From: Onthophagus taurus
Lineage: Eukaryota > Arthropoda > Insecta > Coleoptera > Scarabaeidae
Direction: 5' to 3'
DNA: 64,000 bases
NCBI RefSeq assembly: GCF_036711975.1
Contig: NC_091971.1
Span: forward strand, 6,021,501 to 6,085,500
Shown: in pieces, positions 2,438-51,040 of the stretch
How the letters are laid out: every line of letters starts with the position of its first letter
Position numbering within the stretch: the stretch's first letter is position 1
Notes under the pieces: model-generated
Database searches by the model: none
What the model saw: only the letters and a program-made list of their open reading frames with translations
What the model was told of the DNA's origin: nothing
Made by a program: the position numbers and the translations under genes

Positions 2438-3949
2438 TTGCTTCGTTAGTTAAATCAGCATCAAAAGAGTTCATTTTGTATCTCGGATCTAAATAACTTG
2501 ACATATTTTCTTATCAGCTTTCTTATTAATTTCATATTTATTCAAATATTGCAATAATGTGGCAGTATAGGGTATCACTTCAGAAATGCACCAGAAATGA
2601 TAACCATAATGGCCGGATAGATATTCCGTATTTCCGGCCGAAGGGGATGCCGAATATCCGGCTTTTTTACAAATCACTATCCGTTCCATCACTTTCTAGG
2701 CAGCCGGCAAAATCTCGAATTTTCCTTGTGTAATTTTTGCTTAAAACTGTCTGATAGCAACTTTTTGACGTTTCAATTTGAAAACACTTCTCCGAATTAA
2801 AAAATAGAGTATGAAACATTCGGGTGTAGCATAAAAACGAAAGGCCAAAAAACTTTATTACTCTTACCGTTTTTTTTTATGTAATTTCTCAAAGATTAAC
2901 CTTCCTCGAAATAACAAAAAAACCTTTGGTGATCCACTTTTAAAAACCTTGACGAAACCGTTAAAACTCGAAGTCATTAAGCAATGGCAACTAACGTTAA
3001 CGCATCGCCGGTAGTTTCGTTGGCCTACATCCAACAATTAAATTTAACCAGTTTTAGATGGAACAATACCAGTGGGATTACTCAAAAGAGAATAATTATT
3101 TAATCAAGGTTTCAAAATTCTCCCACATTTTATCTTTGTTACAAAAAAGAATTAAAACGAATCTAATTTGAATCGGATCACTTCCTACATTGTATTTCTT
3201 TGAAGGTTTACCTTCAAGATCAAGGTTATTTTTATAAGTATCAAGACTTTTAATTATCACCACAACTAACACCTAAAACTAGAAACATTCGGGTTTATCC
3301 GAGCGTTTCTAGTGCTAGTGTAAGTTTTAGTTTAAAAATTATTTTATTTTATAATGTTATAATTGTTTCATTGGTTTATCGCTCAATTAATTTATAAAAC
3401 TGGAGGAACCTTGAAGATAATTAATGATTAATTAATGAGAAGGAAGTTGAAAGGAAATAATTTTATTTATTTATTTTAGTTACGGTTTATTATAAATTAC
3501 TAAATCGTCTAAGTTCCTTATTAATTATCACATTACGCAATCTTAATTTGTAAGTTAAATAATCGGTCGTATGATAAATGACGTTAGGTGATTAAAAAAA
3601 AATGTTTCTAAGAAAGGGAAACAATTCAACAACCAACGTCATTATTGTCTTATAAATTGATGTATATACCTGGAATTACCAATAGATCGCTCGGAATGTT
3701 GCGGACGTACATAGCTAAATATGTACATTGTTCGATGACGTACATTTTCCGATTTACAAAACAAGTTAAATGAGTTTTATTTTATTCAAAAGAAAACTTA
3801 TTATGTATCAGTCTTTGTATCCAATATTAAGTACAATTTTTAAGTAAAGAAATTTAATTAATCATTAATGATTCTTAAAAATTAACACAGCCCATTAAAT
3901 AAAATCATATACAATTATAAACTTAAACTAACATCCAAACATTAATTTT
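2438..3949. other. Gap with repeat-family fragments, no gene seen
   Basis: Two parts are recognisable. The first, about 2690-2850, matches 51585-51730 ('ctcgaattttcc' followed by 'gtgtaatttttgcttaaaac'). The second, about 3255-3345, is a palindromic unit around 'acattcgggtttatcc'. The rest is AT-rich DNA, probably the 3' flank of the minus-strand gene that follows. Confidence 0.5.
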
Positions 3950-6900
3950 TTACATTTTAATGTTTGCCGTTGTTGATGATGATCTTTCTCTGTGAAGTTG
4001 AAAAAGTTCAATGACGGAGAGTCTTTGAACCGTCGTTGGTTGAACGGTGGTTCCGGTGGCGTGGGTTCTTGGTGGTTCCGGGGGCACCGCCGCCGCTGCC
4101 GTGGTCAACGCCGATTCTTTTGAGAGTTCTCCGACCTTTTTCAATTGTTCCAAGGCCTCTTCGTACGTGGGCAAGCCGGAAACTATCGTGTAACTAGGCA
4201 AGGATTCGCATTCTGATACCGTTGCCTCTAAGTCTTCTCTTCTACGTTCTTCAACTAAAACAAATAAAAGAAATGTTTAATAAAAATAAAATATAACAAA
4301 AAAGTCTTTTTAGAAATTTATTTGGTTCGTTGGCGATTTTGTAATTTAATCCAAGGTTAAGAAATGTTTTAAGATCTTTTTAACATTAAAAAAATGGTCA
4401 CGATTTATTAAAACTTATTCATTTCCTTTACAGTTTTAAATCAAATCCATGATGTAAAGATTTCTTAATGAATTTTTTTTTTGGAAATTTTAAAAATAAA
4501 CCTGTTGATTTGTTGAAACAACACCAAACAGTTTTTTTTGAGATATTCAAAACCTTGACATATTAAAAAATTAAAAACTTCCACGAAACCGGATTCGCTA
4601 TCTCGACGATTTATTAAATTATGTTCCTTTTCTTTTTGCGTGCCTTTTTTTGCAGATTGATAGATTACACAAAGAAAGTGAATGATGTCACTCCGCGCCA
4701 GACTTTAAATGAGTCATCATTGCGTGGGTAGAAACTTTGCTTTTTCCCGTATAAAGAGATTGCGATTACACATAAATTGGACTACTTAGGAAATTGAGTC
4801 TGACCGGAAAGAAAAAGTAAGCGATAACTGTATATTGAACTTGGAAGGGAGCGAAGCGGAAGAGTGCTAAATTGAAAAGTAATGTTTAGGAGACATGCAT
4901 CGCTAAGCTTTTTACTAATTAGTATGGTTTTGTTATCGTTTCAAAGGGGAGATTATCATAACCAAAATCATTCCTTGAGAATAATCAAAAATGTGTCTTT
5001 GAGATAATATAAGTCTTGTGTTAGTTTTAGTGACTTCCAATTTAATAGTGCAACTCAGTTTCGAATATCTCGATTAATTATAAAATTAAATTATTAATCA
5101 AAAATCTATTTTTGTTAAAAATTAAATAAGCAAATCAAGAAATGAAGAAACAATTTAATTTGGATTTCATTTTACACAGTTTCCATAAGTGGATTTAAAT
5201 TGCAGCTTGTGTTAAAATCTTGTTTATTTACGTTAATAATTAAGTGTTAATGGTAATGTTTTTATTTAGTTATTTTCCGCTGTCTACTTTCTTTCATAAT
5301 TTAACTAATACAATATTTTTCGTTCAAATAGTTGCATAAAGTTGGGTGCTAAACAACTAGGATAGTAAGAAAATATAATTAAAATGGAAAAATATTGGAA
5401 AGAAAAATATTATTGGTAGTTTGTTTATTGACTCATCCCATAAAAACATTTTTTAATGATTTTGAAACAACTGCGACTTGGTCTCGAACAAGATAAACAA
5501 TTTATTTAAAATTAGAATAATACTCAAATCTTAATTTAATCTTTTATTAACAATAATCTGATAAATGTAAAAAAACCTTTGCTATAAAGAATTCGATAAT
5601 TTATTTATCATTGTTTAAAAGAAATTAACACCACTATAACAATAAAATTGAAACGTAATATCAAATCGATCAATTAGAATGTTACGCTTCAGTTTTGATA
5701 ATAGTTTAAATTGACCAGACAAGCTCGTTGTATATTTTGTAACCACCATTTAAGATCACACGTTTATTTACGTAGACTATAACGAGCAAAACACTAAAAT
5801 TAACCGCATGTGGCGAGTATTTGTAAAATTATTTAGCCACACGCTGCAAGTTCGGATTCTTTTTATTGACGGTTCGATTTTACATCGTTTTCGTCACCGA
5901 TGTCGCGTCATAAAACGTACTAGGCTGTCTCGAGTACTGATTTAATGCGAAATTTAAACATTGAAAATGTAACAATGAGATTTGTAAACGATGATGTTTT
6001 AATTTTTTATGGAAAAGATGTTTTTAAGGAAATTTACTAAAACTTATGTCATTATAATGTCGATCTCGAGATTTAGATGAATCTATAAGATTTGAGGGCA
6101 CTTCCACTATTTTTAACAGTATGTGTATGCAAAAGACGTATATTACAAAAAAACTTTTAGAATAAAAGTTGTAGCAAATTCAATTGTTAACAATATTCCT
6201 CTCTTTCACTTTTACTGTCAGATGCATAGATATCGCAAAAATTCGAATATATGAAAATTTGAGGAATTTGTTGCCTTTTCAAGATATTAAGGATAGCACT
6301 CGGGAATTGGAGCATGTTATAAGAAAACTTTTAGAATAAAAGTTTTAGCAAATTTTATTCTTAACAGTATTGCTCTCTTTCACTTTTATTGTGAGATGCA
6401 TAGATATTGAGAAAAATACGAAAATACAAAAATTTGAGGAATTTGTTGCTTTTTCAAATTATTAAGGGTAGCACTCGGGAATTGGAGCATGTTATAAGAA
6501 AACTTTTAGAATAAAAGTTTTAGCAAATTTTATTCTTAACAGTATTGCTCTCTTTCACTTTTATTGTGAGATGCATAGATATTGAGAAAAATACGAAAAT
6601 ATGAAAATTTGAGGAATTTGTTGCCTTTTCAAGATATTAAGGGTAGCACTCGGGAATTGGAGCATGTTATAAGAAAACTTTTAGAATAAAAGTTTTAGCA
6701 AATTTTATTCTTAACAGTATTGCTCTCTTTCACTTTTATTGTGAGATGCATAGATATTGAGAAAAATACGAAAATATGAAAATTTGAGGAATTTTTAGAA
6801 TAAAAGTTGTAGCAAATTCAATTGTTAACAATATTCCTCTCTTTCACTTTTACTGTCAGATGCATAGATATCGCAAAAATTCGAATATATGAAAATTTGA

Positions 6901-9900
6901 GGAATTTGTTGCCTTTTCAAGATATTAAGGGTAGCACTCGGGAATTGGAGCATGTTATAAGAAAACTTTTAGAATAAAAGTTTTAGCAAATTTTATTCTT
7001 AACAACAGTATTGCTCTCTTTCACTTTTATTGTGAGATGCATAGATATTGAGAAAAATACGAAAATATGAAAATTTGAGGAATTTGTTGCCTTTTCAAGA
7101 TATTAAGGGTAGCACTCGGGAATTGGAGCATGTTATAAGAAAACTTTTAGAATAAAACTTTTAGCAAATTTTATTCTTAACAGTATTGCTCCCTTTCACT
7201 TTTATTGTGAGATGCATAGATATTGAAAAAAATACGAAAATATGAAAATTTGAGGAATTTGTTGCTTTTTCAAATTATTAAGGGTAGCACTCGGGAATTG
7301 GAGCATGTTATAAGAAAACTTTTAGAATAAAAGTTTTAGGAAATTTTATTCTTAACAGTATTGCTCTCTTTCACTTTTATTGTGAGATGCATAGATATTG
7401 AGAAAAATACGAAAATATGAAAATTTGAGGAATTTGTTGCCTTTTCAAGATATTAAGGGTAGCACTCGGGAATTGGAGCATGTTATAAGAAAACTTTTAG
7501 AATAAAACTTTTAGCAAATTTTATTCTTAACAGTATTGCTCCCTTTCACTTTTATTGTGAGATGCATAGATATTGAAAAAAATACGAAAATATGAAAATT
7601 TGAGGAATTTGTTGCTTTTTCAAATTATTAAGGGTAGCACTCGGGAATTGGAGCATGTTATAAGAAAACTTTTAGAATAAAAGTTTTAGGAAATTTTATT
7701 CTTAACAGTATTGCTCTCTTTCACTTTTATTGTGAGATGCATAGATATTGAGAAAAATACGAAAATACAAAAATTTGAGGAATTTGTTGCTTTTTCAAAT
7801 TATTAAGGGTAGCACTCGGGAATTGGAGCATGTTATAAGAAAACTTTTAGAATAAAAGTTTTAGCAAATTTTATTCTTAACAATATTGCTCTCTTTCACT
7901 TTTATTGTGAGATGCATAGATATTGAGAAAAATACGAAAATATGAAAATTTGAGGAATTTGTTGCCTTTTCAAGATATTAAGGGTAGCACTCGGGAATTG
8001 GAGCATGTTATAAGAAAACTTTTAGAATAAAAGTTTTAGCAAATTTTATTCTTAACAATATTGCTCTCTTTCACTTTTATTGTGAGATGCATAGATATTG
8101 AGAAAAATACGAATATATGAAAATTTGAGGAATTTGTTGCCTTTTCAAGATATTAAGGGTAGCACTCGGGAATTGGAGCATGTTATAAGGAAACTTTTAG
8201 AATAAAAGTTTTAGCAAATTTTATTCTTAAGAATATTGCCCTCTTTCACTTTTGCTGTCAAATGCATAGATATCGAGAAAAATTCGAAAATATTAAAATT
8301 TGACGAATTTGTTACATATTCAAGTCATTAGGGGTAACACTCGGGAATTAGAGCATGTTATAAGATAATTTTTAAAACAAAAGTTGTAGCAAATTTTATT
8401 CTTAACAATATTGCTCTCTTACACTTTTGCTCTCAGATGCATAGATATCGAGAAAAATACGAAAATATAAAAATAAGCTGTGTTGCATAATACTTCTATT
8501 GTATCCTTTATTGAAGTTTTGAAAATCAGTAGATTAAGTCATACATCAGTACAAAATTTTAAAATATAAAATTGATGAGTTAATTCAAGGATTAAAATCA
8601 CCGGATGTTTTTTGTAAGTTAAACTTAATAGATGTTAAGTATCCGCGGTATTTTGAAATTACAGTATTTTCTCAACATTTATTTTCCTTGCAACGTTTTT
8701 GCTAATATAATTCGATCAGTGCCATATTAAAGATGAGAAAATTGAGTGTGGGCCATTCCCGTTGTTTACAAGAACATTTTAAAAACATCTTTAAAAGTGA
8801 ATTAAGAAAGATTGTTTTAAAAATATCTTTTTAAATAGAGTGTCATTTGAAAGTATCTCTTGAGAGTATCTAAATGTATTGTATATGAAATATGTTTCAT
8901 AATAAATCGGTGCCAACTTTCTCTTGCCTTGACAGAGGAAAATTTTACAAAAATAAAATCACCATCATTTCAATTCAAATAACTCGGATATTAATATTAA
9001 AATAGATAACATATTTTTTTATTAAATCAATTTAAATTGCATCTATTTATGCAAATTGTTGTCAACCTTGACTTATAGAAAAAGATATTAAAATTATTAT
9101 TGTAAGAAAATTAAAACTATTAATTTCCATAACAGTTTTTATTTTTTTTATTGTTACCACGCAAATCATTCCTGTTATATCCTTATAACCAAAAGGTTAC
9201 GCATACTTGGCAATGAAAAATTCATAAGAAATCGTAACTTTATTTTCTTATCAACATTTCCTTTACAAAATGATAAAACAATGTGTCTTTGTTAAACTAT
9301 TCCGAAGGTAAAAGCCTCGAACCTTGTTACAAAAAAGAAATCATTTCACAAAGTTTTTTATTTGGCAAGAAAAAATCTCGGTGATATTGTTAAAAGATAA
9401 AAATTCTTTTGGCCTTGAAGACTACATCTCGAAGACTACAGCTGTTTTAATATATTGTGTTGAATTTAATTTTTTTTGTCCATAGGTTATTGTCGATCTG
9501 GTTTACCTCGATGGTCAGACGATAAACAAAAAGTATGGACACAAAACCAAACTGTGGTACAGGAGACTTTAGTAATTATCAAAAAAAAAGGAAATGAAGG
9601 TTGATTTTCAAAATTATTTTTGTGCCACAAAAAATAGATTTTAATATGATGAGTAATACAAAAACAAAACCATTAACTTTAAGCAATTCACCAAAATTCT
9701 TAACATTTTTTTTATAAATCGTTTAAAAAATATTTAAAATAAATCTTACCACTTCTTTTCCATTGTTGAAATTTATGATAAAGTAAACAGCTGCACATAC
9801 AGCAAACACAACACAAAACCATAAGGGTTAACACAATTCCCACCCACACATCTGCTAAAAATTGTTCGTATTCTGGATCTGTTTCGTGAGCTGATGGTAA

Positions 9901-10014
9901 CTCATCATAAAAATCGAAGAAAAATGTGTAATTTTTCCGATGAAGTAATTTATCGACGGTATCTTTATCGTTAGGAATTTTAAAAGACACGCCAAATTCT
10001 TCCGCCATCCTCAA
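3950..10014 (-). CDS. Commissureless-like transmembrane sorting protein (copy 1)
   Basis: Two coding exons, 9750-10014 and 3950-4254, join in phase 1 (agt g|tt gaa) to give 189 residues. Residues 1-55 are acidic, with a possible N-glycosylation site at N28. Residues 57-79 form a cysteine-rich membrane segment. The cytosolic tail has LPSY at 107-110 and LPTYEEA at 116-122. The stretch [18 protein letters not shown] aligns closely with the PPCY...GLPSYDEAL sorting motif of Drosophila Commissureless. There it recruits Nedd4-type ubiquitin ligases and diverts Robo receptors to late endosomes during midline crossing. Here the first PPxY is LPxY. The 5.5-kb intron (4255-9749) holds a 175-bp satellite. 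The start could be M1 or M3. Family assignment is strong; the role in axon guidance is inferred from the family. Confidence 0.82.
6130..8475. repeat. 175-bp satellite array in the commissureless-like intron
   Basis: The landmark 'cgggaattggagcatg' recurs at 6301, 6476, 6651, 6939, 7117, 7292, 7467, 7642, 7817, 7992 and 8167, and in diverged form at 8342. The step is 175 bp, apart from one internally deleted copy near 6790. Alternate copies at 7292-7817 share variants ('caaattatta' against 'caagatatta'), so duplication also occurred in 350-bp pairs. The last copies, after 8230, are the most diverged, as expected at an array edge. Confidence 0.95.
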
Positions 10015-12789
10015 AATTCGATTTATAAACGATAAAATAAAATTTTATTTTATATAGATGAAGTTAAGTTGATTCTCGTGCCGCAACCGCACCGGTAAAA
10101 ATGAGCAAAGCAGTTCAACTTGAAGATTATATGCGTGTTCTCGACCAACTGTTGCTCTCCCACTACTTTAGAAGGTTACTACAAATGTGATTTTTCGCTT
10201 TGGTACGTGTGATATCGCAAGTGAGGTACTTACTACGTGTAAACGTTTACACATTGGTCATCAACTCATTAAACATAGACAAAAAAATTATTAATTAGTG
10301 TTGTAAAGTCGAACGGATATTTTCATTATTCGTCATTATTTATTATTGCAGTTGGATTATGTTAGAGTTAAGATAAGAATTGTCATAATTAAAAAGGCTT
10401 TTTTAAGTCATTGTTGAGATTTTATAAAAAAATTAAGAGTTAAATGAACTGTAAAGAATTGTGAAATGTTGAATAAGAGAAAGATATTGTGATTTTTTTT
10501 CTTTATTATCGGAATTGAGTTCGTGGTAAAAGCTGTGAATCATTTTTTTCTTTAATTTTATTGGTTTTAAACATTTATCTTATAGATTCTCTGGGTATTT
10601 TCATTTTGACATAATCCATTTTCTAAAAATTTATATATTCTAATCTCCATGTGACATCATCGTGCTTCAGTAATTTAATTAATTACATGAAATGTAAAAA
10701 TAGCACAGGAAAAACTTCATCACCCAGTATTATTGCAACACCTCATGATTAGCATCTTCTGGATAACGAAAAGGCAACTCTTCAATAGCAATAAAAGGAA
10801 TAACTAAGAAATAAAGCAAACGATACATTTATGGAATCCTGATTCTGCGAAATAACACGCTGCCTAACAAATGTCAGTGCAGATTGCGCAAATATTTCGA
10901 CGTCAAATCTCCATCAAATAATAAAACCGAGTGTTCTAAGACTGCTTTCTGGTCATCAATGTTAGGTGTGTGACCTACTCTTCATTTCATTCTGTAACAA
11001 TGCATTCATTGAGTCAATATACATTCCCCAGCCTCTTAAAGCAACGATACAGACTCCAAAGAGCTACAATTTAACAATAATTCAGCTATCAGCTTAACCA
11101 GAAGATATTGTAATTGTAAACAATGATGGAAAATATGATGGAAAAACTCAGATGAAGAGAAGAGAAGCTTTTGAAATTTTAAATTGCTAATAACATAAAT
11201 TACTGTAAATTGATAACTTTAAAGTTAAAAAATATCATTAAACTCCTGTAACGCTTTTAAAACCATATTCATACATAAAAATTTGTAATTACGTTATTGG
11301 TAATAGGTAGCATATCTGATTGTACTCCATGTCAAAATTCTGACATATGTCAAACAGATTTTAAGTTTGGTTATGTTTATCTTGATGCATTTATCTTTAT
11401 TTATTTGTTTTAGAAGTAACAGTTTAGTAATAAAGTTTGTAAGTTATTTATTGCCTAATTACAATTTCATATTTATATTATTTTTTGCAGAATTAACATA
11501 AATTGAATATAAATTGTCATTGGAATTGGTTGTTGGATCCCTTAAGCTTTGTATTAAGCTAAGTTTCCTAAAAATCCGTTCTTACAATCATCATGGAATG
11601 TAATAAAACACTCTTCCTTTTAAATTATTTTTGAGTTTGCTACATCATCCTCATAAAACTAACCATGAACCTGAGAATTCTTTAATAATGTTGGTCTTCA
11701 ATGCAACAAAGTAAGATGTTTCATATACAATTTTTTAATAATTATTCTTCTTTTATTGATTAATGTTCCATGCAAGTGGTTCATTAGGACTTTTTTAGGT
11801 TGGATTATTTATTTTCTCATCCTTGGATTAACCTACAAATTTAAATAAGCATTAGCTACAGAAGTGTTGAGATCCAAATTATGCCTTGTCAAGTTTGGAA
11901 ATTATGAAACTAATCTAAAATTAGTTAAAACTCAATAATTTGGTAATCAAAAAAACTGGGTTATGTGTAATAATTTACAAACTCTGATACCTAATCACAT
12001 TAAAAGTATTTGATTACATGAAACTTGAATTGCAAAAATTCCCTGCAATGAGACTTACATAATTCCTATATTGAATTAATTTGTTCCCAAAACGCTATAT
12101 TTTCCGTTACCTCTTTAACCTATAAAATAAAATGATTTATTTTTAGATCAGTCCAAATTTTAATAGATCAAGGTTTCATAAAGTTTACAAGTATTACATG
12201 ATTCATGTCTTACCGTTATATTGCATAATGGATTGAAATTTACGACCCATAACAACGTTAATTCTCCCCTAACAATATTCATAAATGCACTGCAGTAAGC
12301 AAAGTTTAGATACATATTAGTTGAGAGATTTTAATGTAAATAAAACAGTTTATATTTCATTGTTCGTTTTATCAAAATTATAATCTCAATGCGGATATTT
12401 ACTCAACATCAAAGATTTCATTGCGAAATTAAAATCCCATTCATTCGTGTAAGAGTAAATTTTATAAAAAAATTGGAATGAAGTGTATGTGACCCAAATT
12501 GCATTGTTAATAAATATTTATAACTTAACCTTAAAATGGAGAAAGAAAAAACGTAACAAAAATCCTTTATTTATTAATTATCTTAATAATCCTTATAAAA
12601 ATATAATAATTACATTATATCAATAAATTGGCGTCTATGGCATTCGAAATAAAAAAACCACCAAAAGTACACTTAATCGCGCCGAATCTTTCATTGTAGG
12701 CTTCACAGAAGCAATTCTACACAGCGCTATAAATCCATAAATCACCTTTTTACATTTTTTATTCTTAACTTTGTCAATTTTATTTTTTG
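10015..12789. other. Intergenic, no gene recognised
   Basis: AT-rich DNA between the two commissureless-like genes. The stretch 10015-10300 just upstream of copy 1 should hold its 5' UTR and promoter. I saw no open frame with coding character, RNA gene or clear repeat in the rest. Confidence 0.4.
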
Positions 12790-15562
12790 TTATGCCACTA
12801 TGTGTTGGTTGGTCCCTAATGATTTGGTTGAGTTGGTCATTTTCATTGCTTCGTCGTATGTGGGTAACCCGGAGGCGTCCGTATACGTGGGGGGAACCCC
12901 CAAATAACTTGGCCTGTTATCACATGGTGATGGTGGATAATAAGGCACTTCTAAGACACCGGGTTGTGGTAAAATGTACGGCGATCTGCTTAGTTGTGTG
13001 TTCACATCGTGGTTATAAAAAACTGAAAAATAAAAATAAATAATATCATCTCAATTTTATGCATGATTAAGTTTTTAAAAGATTGTTGGGTTTAAAAATA
13101 AATAAGTAATTTAAAATGTATTTTTTAATGGATTGTTTTTGACTTGTATTTGAAAAACATTCATAAGTGTTGTGAAAAACAATGTGTTTAAGGTTAAATT
13201 TAAAAATAACTTTAGTTTTCATATCTTGAAGAAAATCTTTCAAAAAAAAAAAAAAAACAAGTTTATGTTAATTTGCTTCTAATATATACAATTTATATGA
13301 TTAGATATTGTAATAATCATATCAAGTGAAGGTAAAGATCGATTAAGTAAGTGGAATAATAATTTTCTGATGCAAAAAGTAAGAAATTTTACTAATTCAA
13401 AATTCTTGTTTTCGCTATAAATCTCTTTTAAGACAAGTACTTCTTTAAGAGTATCTAAATTAACACGTAAAGTAATATATTAATAATTAAAATATATAAA
13501 AATTGTTTGAAGATCAGTCCCAAAATCAACAGGGAATTTTGTTATATCATGTTTTGAAATTAACATCTGTCAAAGTGACGTTTGAATTTATGTTATTCAA
13601 GTATTGGTTATTTTTATACACAAATAATTGAAATAAAATATAATATAAATTTTTTAAAGTCAAACATGTAGGTACCGAAAATATTACTAAAAATCAGAAA
13701 ATAAAATAAATTTTATAATAACCCTACGGAATAGAAAAAATCCTAAAATTTTGACATTGACAGATAAAGAAAGAAAACTGTAATATGTTTAGCAAAAAAA
13801 TATGATTTTGAGAATTTAAAAAATGAAGGGAATTTATTGGATTTGCAGAAAACTTTGAAGACTTTTTCTGATGTTCTCTACTTTGCAGATAACCTCGTAA
13901 GTTTAGCGAAATCAAATCTGGTGGTTTTCGGCGATCTCGATTCAATGCAGAGATAATGCATACATTACATGTATAGAGTTATCTAGGTTAAGATTTGATG
14001 TAAATAGTTTTAGATGAAGGAAAGATCAAGCTTTCTAGTGATGTATTTAATATTCCACTATCTCTAAGTACAACGAAGATAAGAATATGGAAAGTACGTT
14101 GAAAAATAGAGATTAAGAGTTTGTTGTTTGAGATTTGTCGAGCATTTTGTGATTTCGATAGGAGAAACTATGGCGAGTCAAATAACGTATAGATCTCGAT
14201 AATCGAGTACTTTATTTACAAGTTATTACCATTTAAAACAGGTCATTTTTGTGTTATTTCGAACCTTCGCAACCTTTTGGCGGAATTTGAAAGAGATTTC
14301 GAATCGGACATTTCCACTTTACTTCTTACTCAGTTCCTCAACGAAAAAATTAATCTGTGTGAATGATTAATAATCATTGTGCTATTATCACTGATTGTTT
14401 CACTTTATGATTCTTTATGAAATCAACTAATTGTTTAAATATTTCTTTTTTAATATACTCATTTCCTGTATGACGCATTTCCTACAATAACATAATCGAA
14501 TCCCCTTTTCAAGCTGTTTATACAAGAACCACCATAAAAAGTGAAATCAATAATTGTTTAAAAATTACTAGATTTTGAAATGTAATAATTTTTATGATTA
14601 CTATTGTTAGTTTTTGTGCAACACATTATTTCAATAAAGATTAAGGCATTGTTTTTTCCTTGAAAATCCGTCCCGCTTATTAGTGAAGCTATTGTTGAAA
14701 TTTAATAACCAATTTTATCGTTTCGAGTTTTCATTCATGTGCCTATTGTAGGTAGTTATTACATAAGAAATCCTAATTGTATTCAGTTAAATTTCTTGAC
14801 CCATATGAAAATTTTATTCTCAAGGTCGGCTTTTAACTTAGTTTTCACTTTCATTGCAAATGGAAAATTTGATTATTCTTAATTAATTTGAAACAAAAAG
14901 TCGTCGACCTTCAGAAAACCCAACTTTTATCTCAATTTGCACTAACGTTTCTGTTATTTTTTCTTTTATTTAAATGTAACTAGTTTTTTGTTGTTTAATT
15001 TTGTAGAATTCATTAATTTTGTCCTTGTAAAAAAAAATCACCAGGGATTTCTCTGCGGGCGTTGTCGCTTTTTTCTAATTAAATTAAAACCAATTATAGA
15101 CAAATGGACCGGGAGAATCATCCTGATGACCTCATGATTCGTTAAAACGAACGAATTTAAAACGGAATTAATATCAATCGGAGAGGAAAACTTTGCATAC
15201 GGTTTATATTCTCGGAGGCGTTTTAACGCCTTTAGCCTTGACGACGTCGTCGTCGGTTTTAATATTTTTCTTTGTTTCTTATTTTAATCGTGAGATCACC
15301 GTTCGCACCTGAATAAATAAATTTAATTATTAATTATCGTATCCACAAAGAATTTTATTTATTTGTTCTTTTGAACCCAACAATCTCAAAAAAAAATAAA
15401 TTTTCCCAACTCACCGTTTTCTGGATCATTTCCAAACTCATTACTCTGTCGGCAACAAAATTTTCTTAACAAATCCAAAACGAATGCGAGAAAAATAATT
15501 ATGACCACGTAGATTAGAATGGCCAGTATATGTCTTTGAAAACCGTCAAGAACGGACACCAT
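12790..15562 (-). CDS. Commissureless-like transmembrane protein (copy 2)
   Basis: Exons 15415-15562 and 12790-13022 join in phase 1 (aac g|tt ttt) to give 126 residues. The outer segment is very short (about 10 residues). A membrane helix at about 11-31 is followed by a basic, cysteine-containing stop (LLRKFCC). The cytosolic tail is rich in proline and tyrosine. It ends in PPTYTDASGLPTYDEAMK at 93-110, which holds a true PPxY (PPTY, 93-96) and the LPTYDEA box. The intron sits at the same place and phase as in copy 1, between the membrane segment and the PY motifs, so the two genes are tandem paralogues. By family they act as Nedd4-binding endosomal sorting adaptors. The start codon is the first ATG after a probable 5' UTR with stops in frame. 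Confidence 0.82.
13500..13960. repeat. Dispersed repeat, related copy at 32380-32900
   Basis: Blocks such as 'catgttttgaa', 'gacgtttga', 'actaaaaatca' and 'aattttataa' occur in the same order in both places, with gaps between. It is an old interspersed repeat of unknown type, lying in the intron of commissureless-like copy 2. Confidence 0.45.
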
Positions 15563-18068
15563 CGACCGAAAACAGCTGCTCCGATAAAAAAAATATAATT
15601 AAAACACCGACTTTTAGGTCGCAAAAAAATTTGTTTCGAATTTAATTCAAAATCACCACGTGTTTTTTAAACGATTTAATCTTTTACGCACACTACACGG
15701 TGTTAACTGCGTCTTTATCGCAATATCGACTGGAGAAATCGCGAACGTCGCTTACGTTTTAAACGAAACAGAGTTGTGTATGTGTAGTTGAGACCCTGTG
15801 GAAACGAGGAGGTGGTCGACGTCTCGACGAAGACCATCGTCGTCGTCGATATCAGTTTTACTCGCGTGTAATTGTACGCCCAATGGCCCGTTTTATTTAT
15901 AGGTTGGCATAGTTTTTGTCTTTGTCTGAATGCAGTACAAGAACACATCAATAATTAAATTCAAAAAATACATCAATAAAATACTTATTTCAAAAAACAC
16001 CGAATTTAATTGTGTTAAACAAAAACGATTAGTTTATTGTAGTGTGCGTCATTGATGAATTCCTAGATTTAAAATGTTTCGCAATACCTTGAAATAAATA
16101 TAGACTCTTTTAGGTAAATAAAATAAACAGAATTTTTAGAACAATCTTGATTACTCATTTCGTTAAATTCTTATTTAACAAACAAATTTTTTTCTTTCCA
16201 CTGTAATTAAGACAAGCAGAATTGTTATTATGAGGTCGTTGAGCTTCCCATGCTGACGAAGTGGCTGATTCTCAATTCTTGTAATTTGTTAGCGAGTTCT
16301 GTGAAATTCACGCTTGCTTTAATGACTGCAATTGTAGGTCTTTAACGATTATCTTCTAATTTTCAAACTTATAAAAGACACTTTCATTACACATCAAAAG
16401 CTGCAATGGGCCGACCACGTGCAGCGGAAGGAAAAACGAGAAAAAGCTGGCAGAATGCAGTTGATGAGTATATAAGTCGTTCATGAAATTTGCGTTTGCT
16501 GAGATAGACAATTTGTCTATGACATCAACATATATACAACATATATCAATTCAATCCAACGCACCGAAAGTTCATGTGTTTTTAGAATTATCTGCAGATT
16601 TAGCTTTGATGTGCTAAATTATTATGATAGGCCTAGAATTATTTGATAGTTCCGAACCTCACGCATGCCTCGAGATATATTTTTACAGAATAATTTGAAC
16701 CACTCCCACCCAGAACAATGGGTGCAGCTTGTAGACAAGAATCACTATAGATCTTTGTATAAAAAAATAATTACTTCTAGATAACTTTGAAGTAACAAGT
16801 TTAATGAAATGTTTATTTACTAAATAGGAGAAAATGATATTTAGGATTTTAGTTTAATAAGAAAAAAGTTTTCAAAGTAAAAAATAAAACAACAAACGAA
16901 AGGAGTTAAATTTCGAATGTAAAAATAAAATGAGAACATCTTCCAAAAAAGTTCAACGTTCGTTAAATCGTAAACACGAAACACTTTGTGTTTGTGGCGT
17001 TTATTTCGTTTCGAATCTTATTTTTACATTTAAAAGTCACGACTGAACAAGAAAAATATCGATCTTTGTGTTTACTTTTTTATTCATCCACCTTTTTGTA
17101 AAGGATTAATAATGATTTAATTTAATACGTATAATTATCTTTCTTTTATTATTTATAGGCATATACAGGATACAACATACACAATTATTTAATTAATTAA
17201 TTACATATAGTGAATCTCAACAGTTTTCTTTTAATCTGAGCCTTAACAACACCAAAAGACGTATCCTACAGTCTTTTTGAAATACATAGCTAATTAATCT
17301 CTCGTCGATGATTGTTATAATAACCATTCTACAGTAAAAGCGGGTGAAACCACTAATAATAATATTAATTAACAGAATTCAATAATAATTTCTGTATACG
17401 TTAACATTGCTTTTTCGTTTTTCTACAATACATAGATCGTGACAGTTAGAGTTTTAATTGTAGAAGACAAAGAATCACCGAAGACTTACTGTATGACTAG
17501 TATTGAATCAACACCGCAAAAATTATATTTTACAATTTTTTTATACAATAAATTACTGGATAAAACGTTATAAAAAAATGGAAATTTTAAATTCCTTGGA
17601 AAAGATTTGTTAAAAAGGAAGTTTACGATTTTAATGATTAAAATGAGATAAATTAATTTTAATTTAAAAAAAAAATACTTTGATATGTTCTAAATCTTTC
17701 ACTCTAAATCAATTATTTTTTAACATAGAAGTGGAATGTGATTTCCAAACCGAAAGAAATAGTTTTAAAAAAGTCTCCATCCATTAAAACTAGCTAACTA
17801 AATTATTATAAAAAAGGAAAACTTCTTAATTTGTATACATATTTTCACTTACAATTAATTTACAACTTATTTAAATATTTTTTTGTCTTTAGAGTCTCAC
17901 TTATTATCTAATTTAGATACACGATCAGTAATGAGGAGGAAAATATATATATACGTAGGGATTTTTGCACATACGAGAGGTGGAAGTCGTAATACTCAAG
18001 GATTATTGTGTTTATTTGGATGTTTTTTTTAATTTTCATATATTATTATTATTATTCTACGAAGAGGG
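15563..18068. other. Intergenic, no host gene recognised
   Basis: The part up to about 15950 is relatively GC-rich and probably holds the promoter and 5' UTR of commissureless-like copy 2. The rest is AT-rich, with a LINE tail at about 16396-16487 and an AT-repeat tract near 17942. The stretch 17150-18068 is likely 3' UTR and flank of flower. Confidence 0.4.
16396..16487 (+). mobile_element. Probable tail of an RTE-type LINE reading frame
   Basis: A short open stretch reads GRPRAAEGKTRKSW followed by QNAVDEYI. This resembles the C-terminal 'GRPRKRW...V..D' box that follows the reverse transcriptase in RTE-clade LINEs. The upstream domains are absent. Only this box is seen, so the call is tentative. 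Confidence 0.4.
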
Positions 18069-19362
18069 TCAGACGTTGCTATCAAACATTGGGGGCCCTG
18101 TGAAGCTCATCGGCTGAGCATTATTCACTAGATTAGAGCGCATGTTTGTACTTGTTGTGTTACTTGTTGGTGGATTCGCATTTGGAACTCCCCTTTGATC
18201 TCCAGCTTGCGCGTTTGCCCTCATTTCTTCTACAGTTGCCCTTGAAAAGAAATAAGAACGATTTAATTCACTCAAAATAAATCGAAAATTTTAAAAGAAA
18301 CAAACTAATTTAATTCAGCTTCTATGTGCTTTTTTATTCGGCCTGAAAGGAAATAAAACATAACTAGATGAGGTTAAGAATGTAGAAGGGTATCTAAATG
18401 GACGAAAAATAAAGATTAAAGCATGCAAAGAAAGCTCTAATTACAATTAAAAACTTTGTTTGAATACTTCTGGTTAAAATTTTTATGTGGGGCGCCAAAC
18501 ATCGGGGTCCTCCATGAGTGTAGACCGAGGATCCCCGGTTGTTACAGTAGAAGGAGATTGTGGGGAAGCCATAGCTGCCATATCCTGCCTAGACCCTCTG
18601 CGTTAGACATGGTAGGGAAAGTTATGATGCGATTATTATTAATTAAGCAATAATTAATTTTAATTAACAAATTGTTTTTAAGCTAGATAATTAGATATAG
18701 ATAGCATCAATAATACACATTGTTTTTACAAGATAAGATACTCACTTTTTTCCTAAAGCCATCATCCCATAAATAACTCCCGTAAGGAAGATAAGACCTC
18801 CTCCAAAAATGCTACTAAGTCCAGTACAAAAAATAACGGGCGGAATCGAAATACTAAAACACAACATTAATTTTAAATCAAATTTCCAAATACAACAAAA
18901 ATTACCAAACATATATAATCGCTTTGTTCCAATACGGTCTATTATCAATCCATTCGCTTACATTTTGAACATAATCTAAAAACATACAGCAACAAGGAGC
19001 CTCGAAACAAATAAGAGTAAATCCAGCCAAAACTTGTAAAATTCCACCAATTAGACAAGATATGTTCATTGTAATTAGAGATAAGGTTTCCACTAATCCT
19101 AATATTATGGCAACTAGGAAATAAATGTGTTAATTATAAATTCGGGCGCAATTAAATGATTTTTAACTTACTTATGCCACCCACAGTCCCAACACCTCTT
19201 CCAGCATACCTTAAATACCAAGGAACGTCGTCTTTGGCGTTCGGGTCTTGACCCGGCCTCGCCATAAGCGATGCTACTTTGTCGGAAAACGACTAAAATC
19301 AAAGATAAAGTGTCAAAAAAACGTTATTTACCAACAAATTTATTGTTTTAATTGTTTACCAT
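18069..19362 (-). CDS. fwe: Flower: synaptic vesicle/endocytosis calcium channel-like protein
   Basis: Five exons join in phase: 19360-19362 (ATG only), 19172-19292, 18906-19113, 18746-18853 and 18069-18240, giving 203 residues (the Drosophila protein is about 194). The N-terminus [14 protein letters not shown] and the C-terminus [11 protein letters not shown]...DSNV match Flower closely. Four membrane segments are present. E79 in FEAPCCC falls at the same number as the glutamate needed for calcium permeation in the fly protein. PWYLRY (25-30) and YGMMALGKK are further family signatures. Flower links synaptic vesicle exocytosis to endocytosis and marks cells in fitness-based cell competition. 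The gene is divergent from BCS1, with about 480 bp between starts. Two other possible last exons are listed separately. Confidence 0.95.
18315..18342 (-). CDS. fwe: Possible alternative last exon of flower (short tail)
   Basis: A good acceptor (tttcctttcag) is followed in the required phase 2 by PNKKAHRS and a stop. Splicing from 18746 gives a 155-residue form ending [11 protein letters not shown]. Fly flower also makes isoforms differing only in C-terminal exons. The exon is only 28 coding bases, so it needs transcript support. Confidence 0.45.
18483..18597 (-). CDS. fwe: Alternative last exon of flower (second tail)
   Basis: After acceptor 'taacgcag' the phase-2 frame stays open for 37 residues: [16 protein letters not shown], a Thr/Gly/Arg stretch, then [10 protein letters not shown] and a stop. 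Splicing from 18746 gives a 184-residue form. The reading frame has coding-like composition, although the sequence around it is AT-rich. This makes a real alternative exon likely. Isoform switching of the Flower tail is the basis of fitness labelling in Drosophila. Confidence 0.65.
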
Positions 19363-19843
19363 GTTCCTAACCGTACGGCGAATGACGTTATGACAATTTG
19401 ATCTGACAGCTGTCAATAACTGTACTGATTAACGGCTACCAACTATTTATTATAAAACACACCAAAATATAAATTTTATCAATACATATATTTGTTAAAA
19501 ATATATAATAAAATGTGTATTTATTTAAATATAATTATTAATAAGATGCTTATTTATACCATAATATCTTAATATAACAGTATTTATGCCTTAATTAAAA
19601 AAAATTTATTGCCAACTTAAAAAAAAATTTGAATTCATAAAAATTTGCTTCTATTTTAAAAATTTAACATATAATATTGTTTTAAATAATATTAATTTCA
19701 TTAAGTAATATTTATTAAGTAATATCAATCAATAATTAAAGATAAAAATTATTTGTTATGTAAAAAAAGAGGTTATGACACATAACCTATAAAACTCATC
19801 TCAAAGGTTCCAATAATAATATTCTAAGTAGTTTAACAAAGCG
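19363..19843. promoter_or_regulatory. Divergent promoter region between flower and BCS1
   Basis: 481 bp of AT-rich DNA separate the oppositely directed starts of flower and BCS1, so both core promoters must lie here. No TATA box at a convincing distance or other named site stands out. Confidence 0.5.
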
Positions 19844-22800: not shown

Positions 22801-25072
22801 GATTTATTTCAACATATTGGAAGAAGGTGGGTAACAAAAATTTATTTTAATTTTCTTTACAATAAAAAAAGATACAAATAACTCGCATAACATAAAAATT
22901 TAAATCTCGTCATTGCACTAAAAGTATTCGAATTATTTTCAATATTATCTCTTTGACGAAAATTGTTAACCCTTAAATTGTAAGACATGAAAACGTTATC
23001 GTTTAAATTTGCAGTTTGGTCCTCTGTAAATTGAGCTAATTGTTCATTAGTCATTATATCTAAAATGTTTGTTGTTAACCCTTGGAAAACTTGCGAGTTT
23101 AATTTTTTAAATTCTTTTGGTTTAATGATTATTACAAGTAAAGCGAGTTTTTCAAATATTTCTTTTGTCCATACTTCTAAAGGGCCGTAAGTATCCGGTC
23201 TTATTGCGATATTTAATAAAACGTTAACTTGTTCTGAAGTACACGGCCAAATATTTTCAAACACCTCTTTATTAATATTAATAAAAACATCGCTTGGGAT
23301 GTTAGATAAATCAATTTCGGGAAATCCACAAATTAATCCTCTTAATTTATTTATTTTTTCCGAATCTTTAAGAATTTCTTTGTTACTTTTTTTAATCATA
23401 TAAGATAAAATAGCAGCTTGACGTCGTTTTAAATACTTTAATGTTCCTAAATACTTCACCAAATCATCTTGGTGGATGTTAAATTTAACAAGTTCATGTT
23501 CGGGGATGTCGTACCATAAACCATTCGTTTCTTCAAGAAAATGTCGATTCATTCTTTCTATCGGAACACGTTTTCGAATTAAATCCCAAATAATTATCTT
23601 TTTTTGATCACTCAATAAAGTCATATCGATCAATTTCAAATTCCCCATTATCACGTTATAAGGAATTTTAAGTATTTCATCATCATCCCCGGTTAATAAA
23701 GTTTTTATAACAATTTCTTGGGGAAAAACGATCTCGTTATAACTTTTAACCGGATTATTTTTCGTTGTATTTTTTATTAAATTAGTTTTAGTTCCAAAAT
23801 CATTCGAATACTTTGAAATGTTTTGAATTTGCGTTAAATTAACGCGTCTTATAATCTCTTCTATAGGAATATATCCGATTGATTTATTTGTTAATGATTG
23901 TATATGTTTCTTGTTAAACCCATCATTTTCATTTTGACCACTTCTAATTAACAGTAAAATAAAAATTAAAATCATAATTTTGTGTCAAAATTAATAAAAA
24001 TTTGATTGATGATTCCTTTCAAATTGATGATAAGCACATTTTTGTTAGCCAGACAGATGGCGCTTAAAAAACACGAAGGAAAAACGGTGATGTACACCGC
24101 GATGGGGAGTGAATGGAGATTGTTTGGACATCCAAGAAAAAGAAGACCCATATCTTCAGTCGTTTTAGATAATGGGGTTAGTGATAGAATTCTTCAAGAT
24201 TGTAAAGAGTTTATAAATAATCCCGGGTGGTATACTGAAAGAGGGATTCCTTATAGGAGGGGATATTTGTTACATGGTCCACCGGGATGCGGAAAATCTT
24301 CGTATATCACAGCTTTGGCGGGAGAATTAGAATTTGGAATTTGCGTATTAAATCTTTCAGAGCGGGGTTTAAGCGATGATCGATTAAATCATTTATTAAG
24401 TGTGGCCCCCGTTCAAAGTATCATTTTATTGGAAGATATCGACGCGGCTTTTGTATCGAGAGAAGATACTGTTCAACAAAAAGCTGCTTATGAAGGATTA
24501 AATCGAGTTACTTTTAGTGGATTATTAAATTGTTTGGATGGTGTTGCAAGTACTGAGGCGAGAATTGTTTTTATGACGACGAATTATTTAGAAAGGTAAA
24601 GAATTTCTTAATCAATATATTTTTTTTGATACCATTGCACCTACGTTTGTTAACAGTTCTGCCAATTATAAATTATCCTAAGTATACAATTTAGAACGAA
24701 CAATTTTTGTATAAAATTCTATATTAACAAAATTTTAAAAATGTAGATGCAATGAAACCAAAAAGAGTAGGGGGTTACTAACATTTTGGTTAATTATTTA
24801 ACATTCTTAGACTTGATCCGGCTTTAATTCGTCCTGGTAGAGTCGATTTAAAAGAATATATAGGTTGGTGTTCCCCTCATCAATTAGAAATCATGTATTT
24901 AAGATTTTATAAAGGAGAAACAGCCGGAGAAGAAGCAAAAGAATTTGCGGAAAAGGTGTCAAAGTTTAACAAAAACGTAAGCCCAGCCCAAATTCAAGGT
25001 TACTTCATGTTTTATAAACAAGCCAGTACTAAAGATATATTAGGAAATGTTAAACTTATTTGGGAATTGTAA
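19844..25072 (+). CDS. BCS1L: Mitochondrial chaperone BCS1 (AAA ATPase for Rieske protein insertion)
   Basis: Four exons, 19844-20166, 22687-22826, 24049-24595 and 24811-25072, join in phase to give 423 residues (human 419). The N-terminus has a glycine-rich membrane segment at about 17-33, followed by the BCS1-specific domain with [12 protein letters not shown]. The AAA module has Walker [10 protein letters not shown] at 231-239, Walker [12 protein letters not shown] from 279, a sensor-1 TTNY and the arginine-finger stretch LIRPGRVD. In the inner mitochondrial membrane BCS1 moves the folded Rieske iron-sulfur protein into complex III. Introns 1 and 2 each hold an opposite-strand gene. The last 32 codons are repeated at 25368-25471. 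Confidence 0.96.
20275..20508 (-). CDS. COX6C: Cytochrome c oxidase subunit 6C (cyclope)
   Basis: A single exon encodes 77 residues, the usual length. PKPQLRNLF near the N-terminus, a membrane helix at about 24-44, and the end [20 protein letters not shown] match COX6C (YRNYDVMKDFEEMRKAGIF in mammals). It is a small nuclear-encoded subunit of complex IV in the inner mitochondrial membrane. The gene lies wholly in intron 1 of BCS1 on the opposite strand, so two respiratory-chain genes are nested. A TATAAATT word lies about 45 bp upstream of the ATG, close to where a core promoter or 5' UTR would be. Confidence 0.93.
   Translation of the reverse strand: MADQCAKIPKPQLRNLFHNQTKMNLAVTFVLTAGAGLLFHFFHNVQYKNRTAQYFREYDIDKEFDEMREKGLFDSCK
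21776..21991. repeat. Inverted-repeat (foldback) element in BCS1 intron 1
   Basis: 'aaatttacagtttcctgtaa' followed by 'attacgg' near 21788-21813 is repeated inverted at 21961-21989. Each arm is itself a small hairpin (ATTTACAG-TTTC-CTGTAAAT). About 150 bp of AT-rich DNA separates the arms. This is a MITE-like or foldback structure. Target-site duplications were not identified. Confidence 0.65.
22110..22492 (-). mobile_element. RTE-clade LINE fragment (end of reverse transcriptase ORF)
   Basis: On the minus strand [17 protein letters not shown] is followed by NIE...FIYLGVEF, the conserved 'LRMNTEKTK...FVYLGS' segment downstream of the RTE reverse transcriptase core. Further on come the [13 protein letters not shown] box and WRSRYNQE, in a different frame and after a much shortened middle. 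The copy is therefore internally deleted, frameshifted and not functional. It sits in BCS1 intron 1. Confidence 0.75.
22553..22612. repeat. GC-rich hairpin with 14-bp arms
   Basis: 'cgcctcggccgcaa' and its inverse 'ttgcggccgaggcg' are about 30 bp apart, a strong stem-loop in AT-rich surroundings. The GCCGAGGCG word is also the hallmark of the satellite at 57.8-59.6 kb, so this may be a stray derivative of that family. Confidence 0.65.
22857..23975 (-). CDS. Unrecognised secreted protein nested in BCS1 intron 2
   Basis: An intronless frame of 372 codons starts at the first ATG. It begins with a short signal peptide ([10 protein letters not shown]) and ends in a hydrophobic tail (about residues 354-372), which could be a GPI-anchor signal or a membrane anchor. 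Several N-glycosylation sites (NLT, NIS, NTT, NKS) fit secretion. The body looks all-helical, with repeated modules such as [18 protein letters not shown] and [15 protein letters not shown]. These recall the stacked-helix mesothelin/stereocilin type, but this is a weak impression, not an identification. It fills most of BCS1 intron 2 on the opposite strand. A frame this long in AT-rich DNA is unlikely by chance. Function unknown. Confidence 0.75.
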   Translation of the reverse strand: MILIFILLLIRSGQNENDGFNKKHIQSLTNKSIGYIPIEEIIRRVNLTQIQNISKYSNDFGTKTNLIKNTTKNNPVKSYNEIVFPQEIVIKTLLTGDDDEILKIPYNVIMGNLKLIDMTLLSDQKKIIIWDLIRKRVPIERMNRHFLEETNGLWYDIPEHELVKFNIHQDDLVKYLGTLKYLKRRQAAILSYMIKKSNKEILKDSEKINKLRGLICGFPEIDLSNIPSDVFININKEVFENIWPCTSEQVNVLLNIAIRPDTYGPLEVWTKEIFEKLALLVIIIKPKEFKKLNSQVFQGLTTNILDIMTNEQLAQFTEDQTANLNDNVFMSYNLRVNNFRQRDNIENNSNTFSAMTRFKFLCYASYLYLFLL

Positions 25073-49760: not shown

Positions 49761-50169
49761 ATTTTTTTAACTTATAAATAACGGTTGATATAAATTTTAC
49801 GATTATATTTGGAAATACCTTTATGATACAGTGACAAAAAAAAACTATGTTTATATACTTATTAAAAAATGACTGATTTTTTGGAAATTATTTTACATTG
49901 TTTTAAAGAGCACGTTTTAAGCTTTCATGTATGACATAAAACATATCTTAAGTAACAGAATTAAACCGGGAGCAACCTCATCTCTATCAACGTCTTATAA
50001 GTTCAAATTCATATTTTTTTCGAAAATTTTTGTATGCATCATACTGGTTGTTATATAAGATCCTAAAGAGGACATTTTAAGCTTTAATTTAAGATACAAG
50101 TCGTTTCTTAACTCCTAGAAATTAACCGAACATGATTTTTTGAAAAAAATAATAAAACTAGAATTTACA

Positions 50170-51040
50170 CACTGAGGGAAATTATTCTTTACTTTCAAGA
50201 AAAATTTATTCTTGAATGTATTTCTTAGAAACAAGTATAAGATACTCTTAAAACAAAAATATTTTTTTGTTTTAAGAATAGAAATATATCGAATAAAGTA
50301 TCTCATTAAACTAAGATTAGAACTAAAACTAGAACTAACACTAGAAACTTTCGGGTTTTGCCGTGCGTCTTTTAATAAAAGGTTTGACGTTTCGGATGCC
50401 ATGTTGCAACCTTCTTCAGAAACTGGTTCGAAGTGGAACATGTTGCAACCTTCTTCAGAAACTGGTTCGAAGTGGAACATGTTGCAACCTTCTGAAGAAG
50501 GTTGCAACATGGCATCCGAAACGTCAAACCTTTTATTAAAAGACGCACGGCAAAACCCGAAAGTTTCTAGTGTTAGTTCTAGTTTTAGTTCTAATCTTAG
50601 TTTAATTCACACCGGCCGTGAAAGCCTTCGTACTTATAAAGTATCTCATATTCTTAGCATCGAAGAATATCAATTCTTTGTATCAAAAAATTCATTCCTG
50701 CGTCAATAATTTATAATACTCAAATGAAGAATTATACAAGATTGTTGTTACATGAACAAGTTTTTCTAAAAAGAAAGATACGTTATTCTTGACATAAGAA
50801 ATTTATTCTCGATACGAAAATGGGATTGTTGACGAAACAGTAAGATACTCTTCTTCAAGATGATTAATTTACTTTCACTAAAAATTCGTTTTCTTGAGAA
50901 TCAAGAATATTTGTATACTTGCTTTGAGAATATGTGGTTTTTCTTCACTTAACAAAATGATCTTCTTGTGGATATACAAGAATATGATAAGCTTGTGCCA
51001 AGAGTAATAATCTTCGTTCAAGAATATATTTCCCTCAGTG
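50170..51040. mobile_element. DNA transposon-like element with CACTGAGGGAAA ends
   Basis: Ends are CACTGAGGGAAA (50170-50181) and its inverse TTTCCCTCAGTG (51029-51040), followed inwards by similar ATTATTCTT/AAGAATAT words. The interior is full of 'caagaat/attcttg' motifs. No transposase is seen. The element is interrupted by the insertion at 50307-50636; without it the length is about 530 bp. Confidence 0.7.
50307..50636 (+). mobile_element. Short hairpin-rich retroelement with 13-bp target duplication (copy 1)
   Basis: 330 bp lie between two copies of taaagtatctcat (50294-50306 and 50637-50649). The element opens with CTAG-rich words, then a long hairpin built of 'gccgtgcgtcttttaataaa' and 'ggtttgacgtttcggatgcc' and their inverse. 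A 33-bp internal direct repeat ('gttgcaaccttcttcagaaa...') forms the loop side. It ends 'caccggccgtgaaagcctt'. The same ends and structure occur at 57028-57319. A target duplication of this length fits target-primed reverse transcription, for example a non-autonomous Penelope-like or LINE-driven element. Confidence 0.82.

Follow-up and report, generated by a model that had tools for sequence, protein, structure and literature searches.

The passage of nerve fibres across the body midline is permitted in flies by a molecular switch, Commissureless (Comm). Here we describe two neighbouring comm-like genes, copy 1 and copy 2, on the minus strand of a stretch of 64,000 nucleotides of the Onthophagus taurus genome (contig NC_091971.1), which is referred to below as the window and whose positions are used as coordinates throughout. 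The closest described arrangements come from Diptera. In Drosophila, comm and comm2, a pair of duplicates, lie side by side and are expressed in identical patterns (passages of PMC9687003), in line with the clustering of fly comm genes invoked in a first-pass annotation of this DNA, and comm2/comm3-like genes are reported from Aedes and Culex, with three in Culex (parts of PMC3130749). The beetle pair resembles the fly comm/comm2 arrangement in its apparent neighbouring duplicates and is a new example of this known organization; its one unusual feature, provided the gene model is correct, is the missing lumenal part of copy 2. Among the titles and abstract openings found in searches of the open-licence literature, none describes a comm pair in beetles. 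The family is described as insect-only, or limited to a subset of insects, in excerpts of PMC8045725, and as poorly conserved outside its motifs in passages of PMC5578492, so that a clear-cut locus flanked by a diverged copy is of help in dating the gene cluster. We put at roughly 75% the probability that copy 1 and copy 2 are two separate genes produced from a Comm-type gene by an old tandem duplication, in which copy 1 would be the Comm proper and copy 2 a ligase-recruiting tail.

The identity of copy 1 is carried by its match to the Pfam Commissureless family (PF15957; curated cut-off 27 bits), to which the predicted protein aligned with 105.4 bits (E 2.5e-30). In the unspliced genome, exon 1 alone scored 48 bits over profile positions 1-46 and exon 2 alone 38.6 bits over profile positions 59-93; with each exon over the cut-off and the profile order kept, these matches support the splice model too. 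Judged by its predicted product, copy 1 is a genuine Commissureless family gene, and probably a Commissureless orthologue or co-orthologue. A search of solved structures with copy 1 returned one insignificant match (E 2.1).

Both predicted tails also reproduce the motif register of Drosophila Comm, a protein with a single membrane segment and two PY motifs (PPCY at 220-223 and LPSY at 229-232, in the accessible text of PMC12101832) spaced 9 residues apart, the second within GLP[ST]Y[DE]EA[LM]. In copy 1, LPSY stands for the fly PPCY and LPTY, within GLPTYEEAL, for the fly LPSY; in copy 2 the corresponding motifs are PPTY and the LPTY of GLPTYDEAM, and the 9-residue spacing is retained in each. 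Aligned to the PY region of fly Comm, the two tails both scored 69 with BLOSUM62 (shuffle means 20.2 for copy 1 and 21.6 for copy 2), a value reached by 0 of 5,000 shuffles in either case. The first-pass annotation had listed the LPSY/LPTY of copy 1 and the PPTY of copy 2 correctly, to which the LPTY of copy 2 can be added. Its further proposal, that ligase binding is split between the paralogues, was rejected: in fly Comm, LPxY is among the motifs known to bind Nedd4 (passages of PMC5578492), so that the absence of PPxY from copy 1 is no loss of ligase-binding motifs, and both copies carry two PY motifs in the register of the fly protein.

Copy 2 is most likely a tandem paralogue of copy 1, as had been suggested at the outset, since the extended PY box occurs at these two genome sites only. 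Searched as a degenerate DNA pattern in the 290,825,966-base genome, where a box interrupted by an intron would escape, GLPxY(D/E)EA gave two matches, both at this pair and 8.7 kb apart, compared with 0 for the reversed control; by our own arithmetic, two sites placed at random would lie no more than 8.7 kb apart in about 6 of 100,000 cases. Confinement of the box to two neighbouring sites makes tandem duplication much likelier than convergence. Within the 124 kb around the pair, only 2 of 2,760 open frames of at least 25 residues carry two [LP]PxY motifs: the exon 2 frames of copy 1 and copy 2. Local alignment of the two predicted proteins scored 65 (shuffle mean 27, 0 of 5,000 shuffles as high) and rests on one 16-residue block, one side of which is PTYTDASGLPTYDEAM; the exon 2 tails by themselves aligned better than all 5,000 shuffles. 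The 8 box codons comprise 2 that are identical, 5 with silent differences and 1 with a change from E to D, a pattern that fits an old duplication with the motif kept by purifying selection.

The gene models were rebuilt on the minus strand. Copy 1 is predicted to run from 10008-9750, spliced to 4254-3950, and to encode 187 residues, and copy 2 from 15562-15415, spliced to 13022-12790, encoding 126 residues, with the following features:

9750..10008, minus strand: copy 1 exon 1, with the start codon, a putative lumenal part of about 55 residues and a Cys-rich membrane segment; GT donor at 9749-9748
4255..9749, minus strand: copy 1 intron, 5495 bases, phase 1
3950..4254, minus strand: copy 1 exon 2, predicted cytoplasmic tail with LPSY and GLPTYEEAL, ending at the stop codon
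4190..4201, minus strand: copy 1 PY motif 1, LPSY, in the place of fly PPCY
4154..4177, minus strand: copy 1 extended PY box, GLPTYEEA, in the place of fly GLPSYDEA
3776..3786, minus strand: overlapping pair of AATAAA polyadenylation-type signals past the stop codon of copy 1 (motif only)
15415..15562, minus strand: copy 2 exon 1, with the start codon, about 10 residues, a membrane segment and RKFCCR; GT donor at 15414-15413
13023..15414, minus strand: copy 2 intron, 2392 bases, phase 1
12790..13022, minus strand: copy 2 exon 2, predicted cytoplasmic tail with RPSY, PPTY and GLPTYDEAM, ending at the stop codon
12883..12894, minus strand: copy 2 PY motif, PPTY, in the place of fly PPCY
12847..12870, minus strand: copy 2 extended PY box, GLPTYDEA
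12566..12575, minus strand: overlapping pair of AATAAA polyadenylation-type signals past the stop codon of copy 2 (motif only)

All splice borders are GT-AG, the phase 1 intron of each copy splits a valine codon as G/TT, and upstream in-frame stops precede both start codons; reading frames, the four splice borders and intron phase are those given earlier. AATAAA signals after both stop codons indicate that copy 1 and copy 2 are likely to be separate transcription units, and further polyadenylation signal-like sites, also identified by motif only, start at 3858 for copy 1 and at 12784 and 12763 for copy 2. The best hydrophobic 19-mer spans residues 58-76 in copy 1, where it contains CCVCCMCSC, and residues 11-29 in copy 2. 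Each protein has a single such segment, which together with the GLPTYEEA and GLPTYDEA boxes agrees with the architecture first proposed, and copy 1 has the layout of Comm, with Cys near the presumed cytoplasmic end of the segment and an N-terminal part ahead of it. For 4 of 4 exons, the frame used in the model had the best codon-usage score; the training set was 10 long open frames from nearby, not all of which are identified genes.

The intron was less informative than had been supposed. The first-pass annotation took a shared intron position as strong evidence of tandem duplication; phase 1 and the side of the intron, between membrane segment and box, do agree, but position does not, the intron lying 26 residues before the box in copy 1 versus 51 in copy 2, and 9 versus 17 residues past the membrane segment. 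Two introns share a phase by chance in about one case out of three. With phase and side alone in agreement and the offsets different, we rejected the intron as strong evidence of duplication.

Two observations concern the copy 2 transcript. At 15308-15258 on the minus strand lies a possible alternative last exon, whose TTTATTTATTCAG acceptor is 106 bases past the exon 1 donor; it is in frame, would append ANGDLTIKIRNKEKY and a stop, and would yield a short form without PY motifs. Its codon score of -0.21 is the best of the three frames, over only 16 codons. Further upstream, a 39-residue open frame (15837-15721, minus strand) lies in the probable copy 2 leader, below TATAAATA at about 15900; it has no Pfam match, and its codon usage has no frame preference.

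The two copies differ most in the part ahead of the membrane segment. Fly Comm requires its lumenal juxtamembrane part (PMC5578492, section 7), and conservation has been shown, in the available portion of PMC2583054, only for the Comm LPSY motif and the membrane/juxtamembrane region. As in fly Comm, there is juxtamembrane sequence on the presumed lumenal side of copy 1, and the protein matches PF15957. The PPTY and LPTY of copy 2 come with about 10 residues ahead of the membrane segment in this gene model, in agreement with the near absence of an outer domain described before, and with a score under the Pfam cut-off. Lacking the lumenal part that fly Comm needs, copy 2 probably recruits Nedd4-type ligases without the mode by which Comm holds Robo.

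This absence could be a product of the model, if an upstream exon supplied a normal lumenal domain to copy 2; we regard this as unlikely, and it would be compatible with a tandem duplication. Between the ATG at 15562 and the nearest in-frame stop upstream of it, there is indeed a CAG acceptor-like site (15578-15576) preceded by a T-rich tract. However, the upstream frame beginning with the ATG at 15837 and leading to a donor-like GT at 15755-15754 would, in our reading, join out of frame, and its codon score (-0.10, versus -0.13 and -0.08 in the other frames) points to no preferred frame; it has no Pfam match. In addition, no stop-to-stop frame of at least 80 residues occurs in 15283-19832; smaller exons would escape this length limit.

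Several results weigh against this reading of the pair as a tandem duplication of a Comm gene. Copy 2 reached 20.0 bits against PF15957 (E 0.00085), through residues 81-115 of the PY region only, and under the cut-off of 27 bits it is not filed as a Comm member by the family's own criterion; the earlier Comm-type designation of both proteins therefore stands by profile search for copy 1 and not for copy 2. The whole-genome PF15957 search (E ≤0.001) gave 2 matches, each a copy 1 exon, among 5 scored candidates, and so yielded neither copy 2 nor a third Comm gene; as copy 2 itself was missed, an equally divergent third copy could escape. Genome protein searches at E ≤10 likewise did not connect the two: with copy 2 the only 2 candidates scored were its own exons, without copy 1, and with copy 1 the only 4 scored were its own exons and two insignificant matches (E 1.37 and 4.21), without copy 2. 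Copy 2 exon 1 has the weakest codon score of the four exons (-0.03; background mean -0.58 and 95% point -0.25, from 80-codon stretches that are longer than this exon). With the 8-residue box masked, the similarity of the tails became marginal (243 of 5,000 shuffles reached the score), and the first exons are without similarity (1,675 of 5,000 shuffles as good, in a test that is weak for short membrane segments). Taken together, the absence of exon 1 similarity and the marginal masked tails confine the sequence evidence on copy 2 to some 16 residues within a region of short linear motifs. Finally, the neuronal need of Comm for Nedd4 was itself disputed, as between PMC3655966 and PMC12101832.

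These results leave room for an improbable alternative in which the PY-tail exon alone was duplicated and joined, via a phase 1 intron, to an unrelated membrane exon, making copy 2 a chimera that is Comm-like in its tail only. The restriction of likeness to exon 2 is what such a history would leave, and equal intron phase would keep the join readable. On the other hand, short membrane segments diverge quickly and the shuffle test is insensitive there, both genes have their parts in identical overall order, and Comm conservation outside the motifs is remarkably low even within insects (passages of PMC5578492). Very improbable is the remaining alternative, that copy 2 is some other small single-pass PY protein (of the Shisa-like, CYYR, WBP1 or TMEM52 kind), a neighbour by accident whose box converged on the same ligase: its sub-threshold Comm score, the equally sub-threshold matches to TMEM52 (14 bits, cut-off 26.4) and ECSCR (12.5 bits, cut-off 27) and the failure of either protein search to list the other copy would allow it, but the box occurs at no other genome site, the genes are neighbours on the same strand, Comm is the best of the four Pfam families found with copy 2 (TMEM52, ECSCR and a phage scaffold family being weaker), the copy 2 model has no Cys ahead of its membrane segment, unlike Cys-rich Shisa-like proteins, and its second PY motif precedes the box as in invertebrate Comm, not after it as in PRRG (passages of PMC5578492).

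Under tandem duplication, the N-terminal part of copy 1 would face the lumen and, with the membrane segment, bind cargo, which in flies is Robo. Its two cytoplasmic PY motifs would recruit WW-HECT ligases of the Nedd4 class, and the cargo would be ubiquitinated and diverted to late endosomes ahead of arrival at the growth cone surface. Published findings differ on the role of the ligase: ubiquitination of Comm itself is reported to be dispensable but its PY motifs essential (passages of PMC3655966), and Robo1 ubiquitination to be PY-dependent (passages of PMC12101832). The mammalian PRRG4 and Ndfip1/2, small membrane PY proteins, are reported to redirect Robo1 (excerpts of PMC5578492 and PMC12101832). 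PRRG proteins differ from the Comm type in their Gla domain and an extra PPxY after the box, whereas Comm-type motifs lie before it (passages of PMC5578492). Candidate ligases are present in the beetle genome, where by our grouping three compact loci combine WW and HECT domains (C5:5.85 Mb, C6:19.35 Mb and C7:6.91 Mb) and a possible fourth, on C2, has these domains about 14 kb apart.

Copy 2 would keep the ligase-recruiting tail, with both PY motifs at an equal 9-residue spacing and almost no lumenal part, and might pick its cargo via the membrane segment or the tail, acting on a different receptor or modulating copy 1. Ligase recruitment for other cargo, or modulation of copy 1, is the most likely role that its anatomy suggests. 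More speculatively, and with low probability, copy 2 could be a PY adapter without a lumenal cargo-binding part that chooses receptors through the membrane only, its tail having been duplicated beside comm and its front half replaced or eroded, to give a second receptor-clearing switch, independent of Robo and under comm-like control. If copy 2 does lack a lumenal domain, a Comm-like protein of this natural form would be well suited to testing which part of Comm is responsible for selecting Robo.

Beyond the left end of the window, exons encode photolyase/cryptochrome, Ras-type GTPase, DnaJ and Asx PHD domains, and to the right of the pair lie a BCS1 gene and a MaoC-like hydratase. A BTB-domain frame (63466 to 64371; 102.5 bits for the part in the window) runs past the window end into the adjoining stretch L015, where it is followed by C2H2 zinc-finger exons. 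Some of these neighbours we take to be cryptochrome 2, Rab14 and lola, the combination of BTB and C2H2 exons presumably marking a lola-type locus; lola is involved in the guidance of axons in the fly. An open frame in L016 taken by eye for neuroligin had no Pfam match. A search for the beetle-type telomere repeat TCAGG yielded 0 matches, in a scan that may pass over simple repeats. Between BCS1 exons, on the opposite strand, a 375-residue open frame with a hydrophobic start (22857-23984, minus strand) gave only a sub-threshold match to Nuf2 (18.5 versus 25 bits). At 50115-50709, overlapping open frames on both strands contain the repeated blocks EEGCNMFHFEPVS (minus) and ETGSKWNMLQPSS (plus), in what is apparently an inverted and tandem repeat.

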